Part shown: positions 12,393 through 46,638 of the stretch, in pieces
Layout of the letters: every line of letters begins with the position of its first letter
How positions within the stretch are numbered: the stretch's first letter is position 1
The notes under the pieces: model-generated
What the model was told of the DNA's origin: nothing
Databases searched by the model: none
Seen by the model: only the letters and a program-made list of their open reading frames with translations
Translations under genes and position numbers: made by a program
Assembly: GCA_025358305.1 (NCBI GenBank)
Contig: JANYJZ010000010.1
Span: forward strand, 1-46,828
Reading direction: 5' to 3'
Length of the DNA: 46,828 bases
Source: Ignavibacteriota bacterium
Lineage (GTDB): Bacteria; Bacteroidota; Ignavibacteria; UBA10030; SZUA-254

Positions 12393-14033
12393 TTAGTGGT
12401 TGGTCGGGCCGGCCACGACCGCAGGTACGGCCGTCGGATGCAACGGCAACGGCGCGAGATGCGGCACCGCACCGTTGCCGTTCTTCCGTAACCCTGGAGA
12501 GAGCTGTGTCGTCGATTTGAGATACGCGTTGGGGTCGTGGTAGAGCGCTCCGGCGGGGAGGTGCTGCCAGAGCGAGCCGAGATCCCTGCGCACCTGGTCC
12601 TTGTAGAACTGGGGAAGCTGGTCCGATTCCTGAGCGTAGAACCGCCGAAACTCCGCGTCGGCCGTCAGGAGCCTGTGAATGTTCGTGTTGTACCGGATCC
12701 TTCCGAACCCTTCCGACGATATCGCTCGGACGACGTTCATCCACTTCGGGACCATCATCCGGTTCGCCCTGAGGCGCCGCATAATCGCCCGTCCCGAAAA
12801 TGTGTGCCTGCCGAGATCCGCCACGTGTCCGTAGAACTCGGGCCAGGAATAGTTCTTCGGCTTGACGTTCATCGCACGGTTGTTGTCCAGAAAATGGAAC
12901 GGAAACGGCAGGACGCGGTTCGCGCGCTGGTACTCGAGGTTCAACGGGGCGGCCTCGCCGAACGCCGAGAGGAGCGAGTACCCCGGGAACGCTCCGGGCG
13001 TCATGTCGACGAAGCGCTTCGTCAGCTCGAAGGGCTCGGGCCCCTCGTCGTCATCGAGACCGAGGACGAAGTTCGTCTGGACGTAGGGGATGTACCGGAG
13101 GATCGTATTGACATGTTCGGAGACCTGCCGGACCTTTTCGAGTCCCTTGAGCTCGCCCGTCCGTGATTTTTCACCCAGCGCATACCACGATTCGACCCCC
13201 GGGAGCAACCCTTTGAACCCGTTGCGCTGCATCCTCTGCAAACGCGGCTCGGAGAGGAGCGAGAGGCTGCTCTCGGCGATGAAATCGATCCGGTTCGGGG
13301 GCACCGACTCCTCGATCGCGTTCATGTAGTCGTCAAACCGGACGCCGAAGTTCGGGTCGTGCCATCCGACGAGCGGGCGCTTGAACTGCTTCAGGAGGAA
13401 GGAGAGGTCGTCCTTCATAACGTCGAAATCGAGGGGCTGGTAGGGAACGGTGGAGTCGATGCAGAATGCGCACGTGTAAGGGCACCCGAGGCTGCCGAGC
13501 ATCGGGACCATCTTGATCAAGGGCGCCTTGCGCAAGGTCCGCTCGATGAACTTCCACCGCTCCCGGATCCCCGGGAGCGTCGAGGGTTGCTGCTTCGCCG
13601 CAAGGTGGACGCCGAACGGCCGGTGCTGTGAGCAGTCGTCGAGGATCTCGTGGATGATCCCCCGGTCCGTGAACCCGACGACGTAGTCGAAATAGAGCCG
13701 CGCGTCATCCGGATAGCAGCGCGCATGCGGCCCGCCGAGGACCGTCACCGCGCCGCGCGACCGGAACAGAGCGCTCAGGGCGTAGGCGGTCTGCGCGGCC
13801 TCCGTGAAGGCGCCGATGAAGACGAGATCGACGTCCTTGGGAAGTTCCTCGATGAGATCTTCGAACCCGGTATAGCAGACGAGCGTGACGTCGTGGCCTT
13901 CCTGCTCGCACCAGACGCCGACGACCTGTGGCATGATGCTTGCGAGGTTGGCGTTCATCACGCGCGCGAACAGCGCCCGTGTGGGTCCCTTGGTGACAAG
14001 ATCGATGATGCCGATCCGAAGCGTGCGCTTCAT
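12393..14033 (-). CDS. Radical SAM protein with B12-binding-like N-terminus
   Basis: 546 residues. GGAGC lies 6 bases before the ATG. Residues 1-135 look like a cobalamin-binding Rossmann domain (IGIIDLVTKGPT, DVDLVFIGAFTEAA, VTVLGGPHARCYPDD) but without the DxHxxG cobalamin-ligand motif. The radical SAM core carries the 4Fe-4S cysteines C184, C188 and C191 in GCPYTCAFC. C-terminal residues 360-546 are specific to this protein, with a Pro/Ala-rich tail. Relatives of this layout act in lipid, hopanoid or cofactor modification, but the substrate cannot be read here. Upstream lie a copy of the shared promoter box (14121-14171) and a terminator-like hairpin in the leader (14069-14096). Confidence 0.85.
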   Translation of the reverse strand: MKRTLRIGIIDLVTKGPTRALFARVMNANLASIMPQVVGVWCEQEGHDVTLVCYTGFEDLIEELPKDVDLVFIGAFTEAAQTAYALSALFRSRGAVTVLGGPHARCYPDDARLYFDYVVGFTDRGIIHEILDDCSQHRPFGVHLAAKQQPSTLPGIRERWKFIERTLRKAPLIKMVPMLGSLGCPYTCAFCIDSTVPYQPLDFDVMKDDLSFLLKQFKRPLVGWHDPNFGVRFDDYMNAIEESVPPNRIDFIAESSLSLLSEPRLQRMQRNGFKGLLPGVESWYALGEKSRTGELKGLEKVRQVSEHVNTILRYIPYVQTNFVLGLDDDEGPEPFELTKRFVDMTPGAFPGYSLLSAFGEAAPLNLEYQRANRVLPFPFHFLDNNRAMNVKPKNYSWPEFYGHVADLGRHTFSGRAIMRRLRANRMMVPKWMNVVRAISSEGFGRIRYNTNIHRLLTADAEFRRFYAQESDQLPQFYKDQVRRDLGSLWQHLPAGALYHDPNAYLKSTTQLSPGLRKNGNGAVPHLAPLPLHPTAVPAVVAGPTNH

Positions 14034-39277: not shown

Positions 39278-40585
39278 TCACGTGAGGAAGATGGTGAACT
39301 GGGTCGGCTGACCTGGCGGGCTTTCAAGCGTGAACTCGAACTTGTGGTGCGCGAGGATCTCCTGGACAAGCGTGAGACCGATCCCCTGGCCGTTCTCCTT
39401 CGTGCTGAAGAACGGCGTGAAGAGGTGCTTTCGCGTCTCCTCCGAGATGCCGGGGCCTGAGTCCTCGATCGTCACGCTCTGTTTTCCGTCCTTCCTCCCC
39501 AGTCGTACGGTGATCGTTCCGCCCGTCTCGACCGCCTCCATCGCGTTCTTCAAGATGTTCAGGAACACCTGCTCCATCTGATGGGCGTCAATGACGGCCG
39601 GCGCGAGGTCGGAACGGATGTCCCAGACGACGCGGATCGACCGGCGCGCGAGTTCCGCGCCGAGGAGTGCGACGAGGTGCTCCAGGATCGGCTTCACCTC
39701 GGTGAGCTGCCTGTGCGGCAGCGGCAGCTTCACGATGTCGGCGAAGCTCTTCATGAACGCATTGAGGTGCTCTGTCCGTGCGATCGCGACCGTGAGCGCC
39801 GTCTCGAAGTCGCCTCGGTCCGCTTCACGGATCTGTTCCTTGTAGTGGAGGCAGGAGTGGAGAAGGGAGTTTGCCGCCCCGAGGGAGTTGTTCACCTCGT
39901 GGGAGAGCATCCGAATGAGCTTCTCGTATGCGGCCTTTTCGGACCTGCGGAACTCCTCGGTGAGCTCCTCGATGAGGTAGAAGGTGCGCGGATGCCCCTG
40001 GTCGATGAACTGCGACCTGTGGCACTTCACCTTCCGGACGCCGCGCAAGGTGACGACCGCCGACTCGCCCACCGCGAGGCCGTCAAGCGTGCCGCCGATG
40101 GGGAGGTGGAGCGACGCGACCTTCCGTCCAAGGAGGTCGGCGCTGGCGGCCTGGAGGATCAATTCTGCGCCGGGGTTGACGAATGAGATCTTCCCGTCGT
40201 AATCGAGCGTGACGATCGCCGTCGGCGTGACCCGAAGGATCTTCTCGAGGAAGAAGTGCTGTTCCTGGATCCTCACCCGTTCTCTAAGGAGGTTGTCGAT
40301 CATGAGGTTATAGACGCCGATGAGCCTGTCCATCTCCGGCTGGCCGAGCTCCCGAATGCGTGTCGTGAAGTCCCCTCCCTTCATGAACTCGACGCCGGAG
40401 GCGATGAGTTCCAACGGCTCGAAGAGCCCCCGGAAGATCTTCGTCGCCGCGAGGAACGAAAGGATGAAGAAAACCTCCAGGGCGAGGAGCCATGCTCGGT
40501 GGTCCCAGAGGAGCGCGGTCACGACGATCGCGAACGCGAGGTGGATGGCGAGGAGATAGAGGGAGAACTTCCGGCGGAGGGTCAC
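39278..40585 (-). CDS. NtrB/NtrY-like sensor histidine kinase
   Basis: 435 residues from a GTG at 40585 that overlaps the regulator's stop as GTGA. Two close membrane helices (about 7-26 and 31-50), a HAMP-like segment (FEPLELIASGVEFMKGGDFT), a PAS domain (about 108-205; FLEKILRVTPTAIVTLDYDG), then the phospho-acceptor H229 in MLSHEVNNSLGAANS. The ATP-binding domain has N-box FLNILKNAMEAV, G1 DSGPGI and G2 KENGQGIGLTLV. With almost no periplasmic loop it probably reads a membrane or cytoplasmic signal. It is the partner of the NtrC-type regulator just upstream. Confidence 0.94.
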   Translation of the reverse strand: MTLRRKFSLYLLAIHLAFAIVVTALLWDHRAWLLALEVFFILSFLAATKIFRGLFEPLELIASGVEFMKGGDFTTRIRELGQPEMDRLIGVYNLMIDNLLRERVRIQEQHFFLEKILRVTPTAIVTLDYDGKISFVNPGAELILQAASADLLGRKVASLHLPIGGTLDGLAVGESAVVTLRGVRKVKCHRSQFIDQGHPRTFYLIEELTEEFRRSEKAAYEKLIRMLSHEVNNSLGAANSLLHSCLHYKEQIREADRGDFETALTVAIARTEHLNAFMKSFADIVKLPLPHRQLTEVKPILEHLVALLGAELARRSIRVVWDIRSDLAPAVIDAHQMEQVFLNILKNAMEAVETGGTITVRLGRKDGKQSVTIEDSGPGISEETRKHLFTPFFSTKENGQGIGLTLVQEILAHHKFEFTLESPPGQPTQFTIFLT

Positions 40586-41949
40586 AACGATATGCCGAAC
40601 TTGTCGAGCCGGCGGTAGAGGGCGGCCCGGCTCAGACCGAGCGCTTCGGCGACCCGGCTGATGTTGCCGCCGAACTGTTCCATGCATCTCGCGATCATCG
40701 CCCGCTCCACCTCCTCCAGGGTCATGCTGCCGGGCGCCGGCAGGCCGGCGTCGTCTGCTTTGGCCGTGTGCGGGGTCTCAAAATCGATGATGTCAAGCGT
40801 GTTCTTCGACGTCATGAGGACGGCCCGCTCGATGACCTGGCGGAGCTGGCGGATGTTGCCGTTCCAGGGCAGCTGCCGGAGCATTTGCATCGCGCGTTCG
40901 GTGATCGTGACGCCCGTCCGACGGTAGACGTTCCCGATGTTCGCCAGGAAGTGACCCGCCAGCAGCGGGATGTCGGCGCTCCGTTCGCGCAAGGGCGGGA
41001 CGTGGAGTGCGATGAGGTTGAGGCGGTACAGAAGATCCTCGCGGAACTCCCCTTCTTGGATCATCTCGGCGAGATTTGCGTTCGTCGCGGCGATGACGCG
41101 CACGTCGACCGTCCGCGGAGTGCTCGAGCCGAGCGCCTCGTAGGACCGGTCCTGGAGGACCCTCAGGAGCTTCACCTGGCAACTCGCGTCGAGGTCGCCG
41201 ATCTCGTCGAGAAGGATCGTGCCGCCGTGCGCGAGCTCGAACCGGCCTTTGCGGTCCTGGCGCGCGTCGGTGAAGGCTCCGGCGACGTGGCCGAACATCT
41301 CGCTTTCGAAGAGCGTCTGCGAGATGCCGCCGAGGTTCACCTTGACGAACGGCTTCGCTTTGCGGGCGCTGTTGCGGTGGATCGCCTCGGCGACGAGCTC
41401 CTTCCCCGTGCCGCTCTCGCCAGTAATGAGGACGGACGCGTCGGTCGCGCTCACGCGGCCGACGATCTGGAGAAGGTGCAGGAGCTTCGGGTCCCGGCCG
41501 ACGATGGGGCTGAAGTCGTGGGCCGCGTCGAGTTCCTCCCGGGATGGGGCGGGGTACGGGTCCCGCGATCCGGCCGCGGCGAGTCCGAGGGTCGTGCGGA
41601 CGGACTGGAGGATCTGATCGTTCGTCCAGGGCTTCGTAATGAAGTCGGCGGCCCCGGCCTTGACGCCGAGGACGGCGAGCGAGATGGAGCCCCACGCGGT
41701 CATGAGGATGACGGGGAGCTCCGGCCGCCGAGCCTTGATCTGCCTGAGGAGTGCGAGTCCTTCCTCGCCGGTCGTCTGCCGGGAGAAGTTCATGTCCTGG
41801 ATGACGAGCGAGACGCGGTTCGCCGAGAGATGCTCCATGGCTTGGGCGGGGCTCGCCGCCGAGAGCGAGTCGTACCCCGCCTGCTTCAAGAGAAGCGCGA
41901 GCGAGGTGACGACGGAGGCGTCGTCATCAACGATGAGAAGTGCGCCCAT
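40582..41949 (-). CDS. NtrC-type sigma-54-dependent response regulator
   Basis: 455 residues from the ATG at 41949; a GTG 12 bases earlier is possible. Receiver with D7-D9 acidic pocket, phospho-acceptor D52, T84 (ILMTAW) and K106 (FITKPW). AAA+ domain: Walker A GESGTGKE (177-184), sigma-54 loop GAFTDA (224-229; the fifth residue is Asp rather than Gly, a variant seen in many active members) and Walker B GGTILLDEIGD (242-252). The Fis-type HTH is NISRVAEALGLSRAALYRRL. It is expected to activate the sigma-54 promoter found before the adaptor gene at 46534. Confidence 0.95.
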   Translation of the reverse strand: MGALLIVDDDASVVTSLALLLKQAGYDSLSAASPAQAMEHLSANRVSLVIQDMNFSRQTTGEEGLALLRQIKARRPELPVILMTAWGSISLAVLGVKAGAADFITKPWTNDQILQSVRTTLGLAAAGSRDPYPAPSREELDAAHDFSPIVGRDPKLLHLLQIVGRVSATDASVLITGESGTGKELVAEAIHRNSARKAKPFVKVNLGGISQTLFESEMFGHVAGAFTDARQDRKGRFELAHGGTILLDEIGDLDASCQVKLLRVLQDRSYEALGSSTPRTVDVRVIAATNANLAEMIQEGEFREDLLYRLNLIALHVPPLRERSADIPLLAGHFLANIGNVYRRTGVTITERAMQMLRQLPWNGNIRQLRQVIERAVLMTSKNTLDIIDFETPHTAKADDAGLPAPGSMTLEEVERAMIARCMEQFGGNISRVAEALGLSRAALYRRLDKFGISL

Positions 41950-42027
41950 CTTCCGTCTCACGTATGGTGGTCATGCGAAGATCCAGGGTCTAAGGGGATG
42001 CGTCACAAGGGGCGCGTGTCAAGCGCC

Positions 42028-42110: not shown

Positions 42111-43325
42111 TCAGTCGCAGTGGAGCGCTTCGGCGGGCTCGATCTCCATCGCAAGCCAGCTCGGATAGAGCCCGCAGGCGACGGTCAGGCCGTACATGAG
42201 GCTCGCGGAGATGACGAGCGCGACGCCGTAGATGCCGTTCGGGATCTCGCTCAACAGATTCAGGAGCGGGAACTGCACGATGATGGCCGTCCCGACGATG
42301 AGTCCGAACGTCGTCAGGACGAGGAGTTCGCCGAGGATCTGCCAGTACACCATGCGGGCGCTCGATCCGAGCGCCCTGCGCAGGCCGATCTCGTTCGTGC
42401 GCCGTGAGACGTTCTGCCAGAGCACCCCGATGAGTCCGAGCGCCACCATGAGGAGGAGAAACCCGGCGATGCAGCCCACGACGATCATGACCGCGATGTC
42501 CGGTTTGAAGTTGGCCCGGCGGAGCTCCTCGAGGGTTTTGATCTCGAATGACCATCCCTTCGCCGTCGATGCGAGGGTCCGGTCAAGCGACTCCTTGAAC
42601 GAGGCGTCCGTGCCCGGTCGTACTCTGATCAGGAGGTCCGACGAGGTGGCCCGGGTCGTCTTCAAGATGTCGAGGTACTCGATGGAGACGTTCGCCGGTG
42701 CGGAAAACTCCCCGTCCTTTCGGAACTCCTCGATAACGCCGACGATCCGGATGTCGCGCATCCCCCGTCCCGTCGGGAAGGAATCGCCCTTCGGGTACGG
42801 GTTCTTCCCGATCGGATTTTCGCTGCCGAAGCGCTGCCGAACGAGGGCCTGGTTGACGATGGCAGGGGTCCACGCGAGCGAGCGGTCGTTTTCCTCGAAC
42901 CATCGGCCCGACACGAGCCGCATCCCGAGGATGTCCTTCGCCTCCTCCGAGCAGTTGTTGATGTAGATGGTGATCTCCTCGCCGTTCACCTTGTCGCGCC
43001 AGATCGACGTGTTGTTCCCGTACGGCGCCATGGCGAACGTCGCCACCCCTTCGACCTGCGGCTGGGCCCGAATGGCGACGAGGAGCTCTTTCATCGTCGC
43101 TTGCTTCACGGCGTTGTACGTCGAATCGAACGGCAGCCGGCTGTCGATGCTGATGCGCCAGACGTTCGCGTACGCGTAGCCGAGCGGCAGGTTGAACCGG
43201 TAGATGCTCACGGCCGCCATGGTGACGACCGCGAAGAGGACGAGGAACGAGATGAGGATCTCGATGGAGATCAACGCGTTCGCCTTCTTCTTGTTCCAGA
43301 TGAGCTTGAAGAGGTGCTTGATCAT
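42111..43325 (-). CDS. MacB/FtsX-type ABC permease (second)
   Basis: 404 residues from the ATG at 43325, which overlaps the first permease's stop as ATGA; an open frame continuing further upstream is an overlap artefact. Layout: N-terminal membrane helix (ISIEILISFLVLFAVVTMAA), a MacB periplasmic core domain of about 220 residues, then three C-terminal helices (IAVMIVVGCIAGFLLLMVAL, LLVLTTFGLIVGTAIIVQF, VALVISASLMYGLTVACGLY). The coupling motif NEIGLRRALGSS and the tail PSWLAMEIEPAEALHCD are typical. It should pair with the first permease as a heterodimer. Confidence 0.92.
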   Translation of the reverse strand: MIKHLFKLIWNKKKANALISIEILISFLVLFAVVTMAAVSIYRFNLPLGYAYANVWRISIDSRLPFDSTYNAVKQATMKELLVAIRAQPQVEGVATFAMAPYGNNTSIWRDKVNGEEITIYINNCSEEAKDILGMRLVSGRWFEENDRSLAWTPAIVNQALVRQRFGSENPIGKNPYPKGDSFPTGRGMRDIRIVGVIEEFRKDGEFSAPANVSIEYLDILKTTRATSSDLLIRVRPGTDASFKESLDRTLASTAKGWSFEIKTLEELRRANFKPDIAVMIVVGCIAGFLLLMVALGLIGVLWQNVSRRTNEIGLRRALGSSARMVYWQILGELLVLTTFGLIVGTAIIVQFPLLNLLSEIPNGIYGVALVISASLMYGLTVACGLYPSWLAMEIEPAEALHCD

Positions 43326-45289: not shown

Positions 45290-46534
45290 CTAGTGGATCT
45301 TGATCTGTGAGAGATGGGAATATTCGTTCATGTCGGAGACGATGACCTCGTCCCCGTCGGCGAGCCCGGTGGCGATCTCCACGTCGTCGAAGTTCATGAC
45401 GCCGAGAGTCACCGGGACCTGCCGGGCGGTCGTGCCGTCGATCCGGAAGACCGTCTGCTGTCCTTTGCCGTTGACGTAGGGCCCCTTCTTTAGGACGAGC
45501 ACGCTGTCGCGCCGGCTCGTGATAAGGGATACGTCGGCGCGCAAGTTCGGCCGGAGGGAGGCGCTCTGCGCGCCGTCGATGGCGATAGAGAGCTTCTGGA
45601 CGCCGTTCTCGATCGTGGGGTAGATCGTTTGGATCGTCCCCGGGATCGAGAGGTCGTTCACGCGGACAATCGCCGACATGCCGATCGAGAGGCTCGCCGC
45701 ATGGATGTCGGAGACGGTCGCTTCGACCCGGTAGCTCGTGAGGTCGGCGACCCGGGCGATGATGTCCCCGCGGTGAATGCTCGAGCCGACCTCCTCCTTG
45801 ATCCATGTGACGACGCCGTCGTGTTCCGCCTTGCAGGCGAGGAGCTCGAGCTGGCGCCGGATGTCCTCCTTCTCCTTCAGGAGCGTATGGACCTCCGTCG
45901 TCATCCCTTCGAGCTGGTTGTCGAGCGATTCCTTCGTGTTGCGGATCGATTCGCCGAGCTTGTCGCGTTCGATGTGTGCGATGCGCTCCTCGAGTTTCGT
46001 CTGTTCCATCTGGTCCTTCGCGATCGCCCCGAGGGCGAGCATTTTGTCGCTCTGTTCCGACTTCGACTTCAGGAACTCGAGCCGCAAGTCCTTGATCGAA
46101 AGCTGCCCGTTGAGGTCCTCGAGCGTGCGCGCCATGTCGAGCTTTAGCTGCTGCTGTCTGTTCGCCTTGAGCGACACTTCTTTCTCCGTCCGGTCGAGCG
46201 AGAGGGCGAGCTCGCTCCGGTCGAGTTCGAGGAGCATCTCCCCGTGCTTCACGCGTTCTCCCGGTTTCTTGCGCACCGAGAGGAGCCGTGATTCTCCGGG
46301 AGAGGATATCGCCTGTTCGAACGCCGGGACGATCGTCCCCGAAGCCGAGATCGAGCCGTCGATGGTCGCACGTCGGACGTGCGCCGTCAGGACGTCCGCG
46401 CGGCTCACCGACGGGCTGATCCAGGCCGACAGGAGAAAAAAGAGCCCTGCGAGCCCGGCGAGAACGACACCCGCCTGGAGGAGTTTCTTGTTCCGACGCT
46501 GCCGGACGATATGTGGTTCGATGTCTCTATCCAT
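45290..46534 (-). CDS. HlyD/MacA-type periplasmic adaptor
   Basis: 414 residues from the ATG at 46534, which is the first start after the sigma-54 promoter. One N-terminal membrane helix (LLQAGVVLAGLAGLFFLLSA), an N-terminal biotinyl-lipoyl half (HVRRATIDGSISASGTIVPA), a long coiled-coil hairpin (about 120-250, heptads of Leu with Lys/Glu), the second lipoyl half (DGVVTWIKEEVGSSIHRGDI) and beta-barrel and membrane-proximal domains. It should bridge the ABC complex to a TolC-like channel, which is not encoded in the window. Confidence 0.94.
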   Translation of the reverse strand: MDRDIEPHIVRQRRNKKLLQAGVVLAGLAGLFFLLSAWISPSVSRADVLTAHVRRATIDGSISASGTIVPAFEQAISSPGESRLLSVRKKPGERVKHGEMLLELDRSELALSLDRTEKEVSLKANRQQQLKLDMARTLEDLNGQLSIKDLRLEFLKSKSEQSDKMLALGAIAKDQMEQTKLEERIAHIERDKLGESIRNTKESLDNQLEGMTTEVHTLLKEKEDIRRQLELLACKAEHDGVVTWIKEEVGSSIHRGDIIARVADLTSYRVEATVSDIHAASLSIGMSAIVRVNDLSIPGTIQTIYPTIENGVQKLSIAIDGAQSASLRPNLRADVSLITSRRDSVLVLKKGPYVNGKGQQTVFRIDGTTARQVPVTLGVMNFDDVEIATGLADGDEVIVSDMNEYSHLSQIKIH

Positions 46535-46555: not shown

Positions 46556-46570
46556 GCAAGCATCGTGCCA
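46556..46570 (-). promoter_or_regulatory. Sigma-54 promoter of the efflux operon
   Basis: On the minus strand TGGCAC (46565-46570), GATGC, TTGCC, matching the -24/-12 consensus TGGCAC-N5-TTGC. The start would fall near 46545, about 11 bases before the adaptor ATG. An NtrC-type activator is encoded at the end of the same cluster. Confidence 0.85.
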
Positions 46571-46592
46571 AAAGAAAGGGGTCAAAAGGAGG

Positions 46593-46638
46593 CCGGATCG
46601 TGTCCGGAGCGCAAGCCGGCTGTCCGATACCGGACAGC
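46593..46638. promoter_or_regulatory. Upstream activator sites
   Basis: A perfect dyad GCTGTCCGATACCGGACAGC (46619-46638; 8-base arms, 4-base spacer) is centred about 84 bases upstream of the predicted start. A second, weaker pair CCGGA-N5-TCCGG (46593-46607) includes another TGTCCGG. Position and symmetry suit binding of a dimeric NtrC-type activator. Confidence 0.7.

Follow-up and report, generated by a model that had tools for sequence, protein, structure and literature searches.

A putative sigma-54 control module for split MacB/FtsX-type exporters, its recurrence across bacteria and its regulators with mostly aspartate in the sigma-54 contact loop

The window, i.e. the whole stretch of DNA that was analysed, is an entire contig of 46,828 bases from an Ignavibacteriota genome (3.2 Mb in 42 contigs). 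Close to one end it carries a run of six genes on the minus strand, preceded by a predicted sigma-54 promoter and a predicted activator site:

46705-46677, minus strand: strong terminator-like hairpin (13 pairs and a T run), 3' of the upstream gene
46638-46619, minus strand: predicted upstream activator site, perfect 8-4-8 dyad GCTGTCCG-GTAT-CGGACAGC
46607-46593, minus strand: weak terminator-like hairpin, overlapping the half-site CGGACA
46601-46606, minus strand: additional half-site CGGACA, lying 20 bp downstream of its counterpart in the main dyad
46570-46555, minus strand: predicted sigma-54 promoter element (-24/-12), TGGCACGATGCTTGCC, near-consensus
45290..46534, minus strand: periplasmic adaptor, HlyD/membrane-fusion type, 414 aa
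44608..45273, minus strand: ABC ATPase, LolD/MacB-like, 221 aa
43322..44569, minus strand: permease 1, MacB_PCD and FtsX domains, likely start ATG 44548
42111..43325, minus strand: permease 2, MacB_PCD and FtsX domains, start overlapping the end of permease 1
40582..41961, minus strand: NtrC-type response regulator (receiver, AAA+, Fis-type HTH), loop GAFTDA
39278..40687, minus strand: histidine kinase, true start probably downstream of 40687

The order of the genes, with the adaptor, the ATPase and two permeases followed by an NtrC-type activator and its kinase, had been proposed by a first-pass annotation made from the sequence and was confirmed by Pfam. The regulator starts at GTG 41961 or ATG 41949, and about 150 bp separate it from permease 2. 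Sigma-54 promoters have a -24/-12 element of the consensus GG-N10-GC with characteristic flanks, and such an element with consensus flanks is present at 46570-46555, where TGGCACGATGCTTGCC has its single mismatch-free occurrence in the window. The promoter pattern TGGCAYRNNNNTTGC is found twice in the window, compared with 0.01 occurrences expected per shuffle; the other perfect copy (13929-13943, plus strand) lies within, and antisense to, a minus-strand gene whose product, by eye, resembles a B12-binding radical SAM protein. Transcription is predicted to start on the minus strand at about 46544, 12 bases beyond the -12 C, which would leave a leader of only about 10 nt ahead of the adaptor ATG at 46534. 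The dyad has no other exact copy in the window, and its core TGTCCG-N4-CGGACA (46621-46636) is located 50 bp from the -24 element, so that, given the predicted start, the dyad centre falls at about -84.5, in agreement with the earlier description of a sigma-54 promoter with a perfect 8-4-8 dyad about 84 bases upstream. Since the GC-rich window contains nine perfect 8-4-8 dyads, which are thus not rare by themselves, conservation was tested, and it is conservation that carries weight. The strong hairpin at 46705-46677 sets the operon apart from the preceding gene (8 terminator-like sites were found in the region versus 4.2 in shuffles). A scan for sigma-70 promoters gave no site upstream of the operon and one inside it, and an Rfam scan of the window returned nothing at gathering scores.

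The MacB_PCD and FtsX domains of the permeases, the ABC ATPase and the adaptor place the transporter among the FtsX/MacB_PCD-type ABC exporters. Adaptor, permease domains and a MacB-like ATPase are features in common with MacAB and related systems, and the top solved-structure match of permease 1 is MacB, at a distance. Unlike MacAB, however, the window system has a separate ATPase, two different permease halves and no TolC gene in its run of six genes. MacB itself was rejected as the identity, both because the NCBIfam cut-off of 966 is far above the scores of the permeases (66 and 34 bits) and the ATPase (231 bits) and because ATPase and permease are not fused in one chain; the earlier label 'MacB-type' calls for caution, since the MacB_PCD and FtsX domains sit on split halves. 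Among NCBIfam models, those of the darobactin exporter DarCDE rank first for the adaptor (DarC, 98 bits) and second for the ATPase (DarD), both scores being far under the respective cut-off. A PADLOC scan of four proteins yielded other AAA+ activators and weak matches, none of them naming this system.

Close homologues of the adaptor were detected in only three of 14 family relatives (G001-G014), namely G008 (66% identity), G006 (48%) and, at the edge of a contig, G014 (56% across 71 residues). The dyad is kept in G008 as TGTCCGCTAACGAACA, with one mismatch in the core, together with the promoter TGGCACGGTGTTTGA, which has GA in place of GC at -12, and in G006 as TGTCCGTTAACGGACA, with an exact core, together with the promoter TGGCATGAAGATTGC. 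Exactly 50 bp separate the 16-mer core from the promoter in the window as well as in G008 and G006. In G014 only a half-site and a poor promoter precede the adaptor, at the contig end, and the regulator (71% identical) is still found between permease 2 and the kinase. The anticipated retention of dyad and -24/-12 element in relatives was therefore seen in two of them but not in the third. Gene order in G008 is as in the window (regulator 76% identical), except that an opposite-strand gene, presumably for a CPBP-type membrane protease, intervenes between permease 2 and the regulator, indicating that the regulator genes need not share the transcript of the exporter genes. Permease 1 of G008 (L184, 6443-7677) is split into two overlapping frames, by a frameshift or an assembly error. 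In G006 the regulator (67%) and the kinase are located at the end of another contig (G006:C52), and the ORF beside permease 2 at the start of the operon contig (L185, 116-1465) is, as we presume by eye, a transposase gene; an insertion likely broke the assembly at this point.

Within the 3.2 Mb of the own genome the core TGTCCG-N4-CGGACA occurs once in exact form, and nine further sites have one mismatch, compared with four for a reversed control pattern. In addition, contig C28 (L186, 227-10520) harbors a paralogous second exporter system, in which the genes for a GAFTDA regulator and a kinase run divergently to those for an adaptor, an ATPase and two long permeases; its site is degenerate, with two mismatches (TGTACGATAACAGACA), and lies 73 bp from TGGCGTGGAAATTGC. 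The proposed sigma-54 circuit, regulator pair included, is thus upheld by the presence of rpoN (one RpoN match in the genome) and by dyad and promoter in two of the three family orthologues. That this circuit is also self-contained is plausible in view of the one exact core, but has to be qualified by the second system on C28.

The recurrence of the arrangement was analyzed with the pattern TGTCCGNNNNCGGACA, 36-64 bases, TGGCAYRNNNNTTGC in one genome per species, covering about 85,000 species; by arithmetic with equal base frequencies, about one to a few matches would be expected by chance in the whole collection. At least 122 sites were found in at least 120 stretches, which excludes the module as a rarity. 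Those listed comprise 46 sites from Bacteroidota, 72 from Pseudomonadota (alpha, beta and gamma), one each from Acidobacteriota and Fidelibacterota, and two without a named phylum. When records were grouped by named genus or, otherwise, by the start of the record title, the dyad-promoter pair was present in at least 51 groups, 31 of them named genera. Evenly drawn samples contained the exact pattern in 3 genomes out of 395 for the own phylum (4 sites, counting the own genome) and in 5 out of 101 for the family to which a Bacteroides strain belongs (5 sites, counting that strain), while the reversed pattern had no match in either sample; the strict pattern therefore catches few genomes per group, yet more than the control. 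Searches (phmmer) with the window's own proteins detected adaptor or permease homologues downstream of 82 of the 122 listed sites, within the stretches covered, representing 37 genus-or-record groups with 22 named genera, whereas one site had an ATPase homologue only and 39 had no homologue of these three proteins downstream. Likewise, Pfam analysis of the first genes behind 116 listed sites, six others with fewer than 400 bases behind the site being left out, gave HlyD_3 (50), ABC_tran (12), MacB_PCD (10), OEP of the TolC type (8) and PCMT (4), the first ORF being taken as the longest near the promoter, a choice that can pick the wrong frame where the DNA is GC-rich. A regulator match accompanied 49 of the 122 listed sites, downstream in 12 cases and on the divergent side in 37. 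The first-pass annotation had called sigma-54 control of such a pump by a co-encoded pair uncommon. This assessment did not survive, since the pair occurs in at least 51 groups, at least 37 of them with adaptor or permease downstream, and since a 2025 survey, in the portions considered here, already ties sigma-54 promoters to FtsX-type ABC permeases (PMC12316311). The window system is one example of a widespread, little described control module.

The spacing between site and promoter is phased. Gaps among the listed sites fall into the ranges 38-46, 50-54 and 57-64, with one at 36, while 47-49 and 55-56 are empty. This corresponds to a period of about 10 bp, and none of 20,000 simulations was as periodic (88 group-gap combinations from the 51 genus-or-record groups), a result that held for all five test periods in the range of 9.5-11 bp. 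Moreover, a second site (at least 10 of 12 matches, within -90 to +60) was found near 72 of the 122 listed sites compared to 6 of 122 random positions in an unseeded control, mostly at offsets of 17-24; the half-site CGGACA of the window, at offset 20, falls within this range. Phased gaps and second sites would be expected of a factor that contacts the polymerase from one and the same side of the DNA helix.

The window regulator possesses the receiver, sigma-54 AAA+ and HTH domains of NtrC-type enhancer-binding proteins, and carries GAFTDA instead of an exact GAFTGA in the loop. It has receiver, sigma-54 AAA+ domain and Fis-type HTH in common with NtrC, NtrC1, NtrX, ZraR and AtoC, and the closest chains of known structure are those of NtrC-family regulators and of ZraR, but it scores below the NCBIfam cut-offs of the best 25 of 94 models. 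Judged by sequence, it would differ from these family members in its GAFTDA loop, its dedicated dyad TGTCCG-N4-CGGACA and its ABC exporter target. Among 43 regulators beside listed sites (readable and at least 380 residues long), 42 contain TDA in the loop (27 GAFTDA, 13 GSFTDA, one GAYTDA and one GSYTDA) and one, L092, contains GAFTGA, although many of them are close relatives (Massilia, Sphingomonas), so that 42 of 43 does not represent 43 independent cases. In a tree of the AAA+ domain with the loop masked (84 rows), the 55 TDA rows required 2 changes versus 24 in shuffles and formed two subgroups, one with the window regulator and the other with the divergent type. L092, which was missing from this tree because its piece is short, was added in a second tree of 85 rows, where the TDA label required 3 changes compared with 25 in shuffles; both trees were built by a quick method from the AAA+ to C-terminal part, and in the background rows long branches come together. 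The L092 regulator (Sphingomonas tagetis, upstream of the site at 1247) is placed among the sphingomonad TDA rows, with 79% identity to L080 over 169 columns, and thus looks like a natural return from Asp to Gly. Overall, the regulators of this widespread module group together in the AAA+ tree, most of them with Asp in the sigma-54 contact loop.

An association that does not depend on the site was obtained from the sigma-54 regulators of three genomes (the own genome, a Massilia and a Bacteroides). They contain 47 sigma-54 domain matches, of which 27 were classed; three strong matches with an unreadable loop (L176, L177 and L204) and 17 weak ones (34 bits or less), which were taken as other AAA+ proteins, were left out. 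Adaptor, permease or TolC genes were located within about 5 kb of 7 of 7 TDA regulators, compared to 1 of 20 others (Fisher p 9e-6, or 5e-4 minus three regulators ascertained via the window or the site), with flanks of about 5 kb per side that differ slightly for the pieces of the window, L186, L228 and L229, and with one control cut at a contig end. ATPase matches were left uncounted because ABC ATPases are promiscuous. The exception, L248/L200, is a GAYTGA regulator that also serves an exporter: L248 (G438:C6) is a Massilia exporter with an adaptor and two permease halves beside this regulator. In the tree this regulator forms a long branch adjacent to the TDA rows, and it possibly represents the form that preceded the Asp loop. 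Taken together, this exporter-linked GAYTGA regulator and the GAFTGA regulator of L092 at a site indicate that the association can exist without the loop variant. Bacteroides sp. 214 (G439) contains four TDA regulators (L227-L229 and L252), each near different exporter parts, namely TolC; adaptor and TolC; permease and ATPase; and two permeases.

Intramembrane-sensing kinases are characterized by two membrane helices, a very short loop and no periplasmic domain. The window kinase is of this hairpin form: its two transmembrane helices have about 6 residues between the hydropathy windows, the periplasmic loop is nearly absent, and HAMP and PAS are matched weakly beside an ATPase domain. The very small sensing loop noted earlier was therefore recovered, and it is common in related kinases: the hairpin was resolved in 28 of 36 kinases (those of the own system, G008, C28 of the own genome and L187, and 32 beside listed sites), with loops of 1-16 residues, 27 of them not longer than 11, while at the threshold used six of the remaining eight had one helix and two had none. 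Among 10 kinases scanned, a PAS match was present in the window kinase (1.7e-4), L118, L131, L143 and L155 (best 1.8e-8), weak in L074 and L077 (E 0.006-0.017) and not found in L094, L106 and L087. The PAS domain is thus patchy, and the membrane hairpin is the most constant part. Kinase and exporter genes frequently adjoin. The suggestion in the first-pass annotation that the kinase monitors membrane state or an internal signal is a guess.

Gene content, conservation and phasing together make it very probable that expression of the split MacB/FtsX-type exporter and its periplasmic adaptor in the window is controlled by a sigma-54 circuit dedicated to them. Upon a presumed signal, the hairpin kinase would phosphorylate the co-encoded NtrC-type regulator, which would bind TGTCCG-N4-CGGACA and the half-site 20 bp away and assemble there. 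Its AAA+ ring would then contact the sigma-54 polymerase at -24/-12 via the GAFTDA loop, in a fixed helical phase, and ATP hydrolysis would open the promoter, leading to production of the adaptor, ATPase and permeases and, supposedly, to export of a substrate. Should the whole run be transcribed as a unit, the regulator and the kinase would also be made, resulting in positive feedback. It could be argued that promoter and dyad are due to chance, or belong to another regulator, and that the exporter is expressed otherwise, as the window has nine perfect dyads and a second promoter-like match inside a gene (13929). However, the 50-bp spacing fixed in G008 and G006 and the phased recurrence in at least 51 genus-or-record groups led us to reject a chance promoter and dyad, and the sigma-70 scan offers no site upstream of the operon, so that we consider this reading extremely improbable. 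Equally at odds with the circuit would be a GAFTDA regulator that acts without sigma-54, either by repressing transcription or by activating the main polymerase. VfmH of Dickeya, a GAFTDA protein, was not found together with sigma-54 in a pull-down, although its authors, in the part of the article considered, are undecided about sigma-54 contact and mention that sigma factors are maybe seen only under stress (PMC10714721). In contrast, the NorR variant G266D, with Asp in the loop, is described in the relevant portion of that study as fully constitutive while keeping sigma-54 contact and open-complex formation (PMC2941729), and the corresponding section of a Desulfovibrio vulgaris study counts GAFTDA among the variants expected to remain active and names targets of DVU2106, a protein with this loop (PMC4641369). 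Moreover, the association of TDA regulators with phased -24/-12 elements argues that GAFTDA contacts sigma-54 in this group, and action without sigma-54 is therefore very unlikely.

The input of the predicted sigma-54 circuit is a separate question, for which the Bce modules of Firmicutes offer one model. Bce regulators are OmpR-type, whereas the window regulator is NtrC-type, and unlike Bce modules the window system has a sigma-54 promoter and a periplasmic adaptor. Both have in common an ABC transporter, a kinase without a dedicated sensing domain and a regulator that induces, or in the window is predicted to induce, the transporter, and the Bce kinase has been proposed, in the portions of the article considered, to follow the transporter through its conformational cycle (PMC10314905). 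By analogy we hypothesize that the hairpin kinase may read the cycling of the exporter, whereby the pump would tune its expression to demand; this would add to the sigma-54 circuit and not replace it. The hairpin with loops of 1-16 residues in 28 of 36 kinases and the frequent vicinity of kinase and exporter are consistent with such self-monitoring, but the type of the regulator, the eight kinases not resolved as hairpins at the threshold used and the PAS matches in the own and several related kinases, which could sense a cytosolic ligand, count against it, and we regard it as possible, though clearly short of an even chance. The PAS matches lead to the other model, in which the kinase would sense a cytosolic or membrane-dissolved ligand through PAS or hairpin, independent of the pump. 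PAS was matched in five of the 10 kinases scanned but was absent or weak in the other five, and is thus not a detectable common part; ligand sensing is nevertheless a serious candidate, not far below an even chance. Combining the sigma-54 circuit with self-monitoring would define a Gram-negative, cross-phylum counterpart of the Bce modules, in which the exporter is the sensor, a hairpin kinase and a GAFTDA activator mediate sigma-54 self-induction at TGTCCG-N4-CGGACA, and the Asp loop is an adaptation long kept by these activators, with Gly regained in a rare case (L092), a scenario that we put forward tentatively and consider rather doubtful as a whole.

The 2025 survey reported that sigma-54 promoters are enriched for COG0577 in Bacteroidia, gamma-Proteobacteria and Opitutia and for COG1136 in Opitutia, presented this as the first link to the FtsX-type ABC family, and also covered enhancer-binding proteins by class (PMC12316311). 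Compared with the portions of that survey considered, whose main text does not contain the terms UAS, 'upstream activat' or bEBP, the present analysis adds the dedicated activator site, the regulator group, the loop variant and the kinase. The main text of an earlier survey on sigma-54 and the bacterial exterior has no words beginning with ABC, efflux or MacB (PMC3162934), and that of a D. vulgaris regulator-binding study has no motif of the TGTCCG-N4-CGGACA kind (PMC3333781). None of the titles and abstract openings searched, which lie largely outside subscription journals, connected the site or the regulator group with exporters. What began as a lone promoter observation thereby becomes a testable cross-phylum module, in which one DNA site helps to predict regulator-exporter pairs in bacteria whose pumps have no known trigger, and which offers a sigma-54 system for asking whether a pump can report its own workload. 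It also provides natural test cases for the role of Asp in the sigma-54 contact loop, as the Asp loop renders NorR constitutive according to the part of the study considered (PMC2941729), yet Asp is found in 42 of the 43 regulators beside listed sites.

The 39 listed sites without an exporter homologue downstream are heterogeneous, and several of them have fewer than 700 bases behind the site. Inspection of their first ORFs by eye revealed 6 outer membrane efflux proteins and 4 PCMT-like proteins, while at 12 sites, in Xanthomonas and one Dyella record, the first ORFs form a cluster of their own made up of non-exporter genes. Sites with a gap of 42-44 and no exporter homologue include L059, L071, L082, L100, L104, L109, L115, L133, L137, L141 and L148, the named records among which are Xanthomonas, and the first ORF of L115 and L133 presumably encodes a small secreted protein with repeated TVQVRP-like motifs. 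In L093, L095, L096 and L139, which are sphingomonad or proteobacterial where named, the site stands before a protein-L-isoaspartate methyltransferase-like gene.
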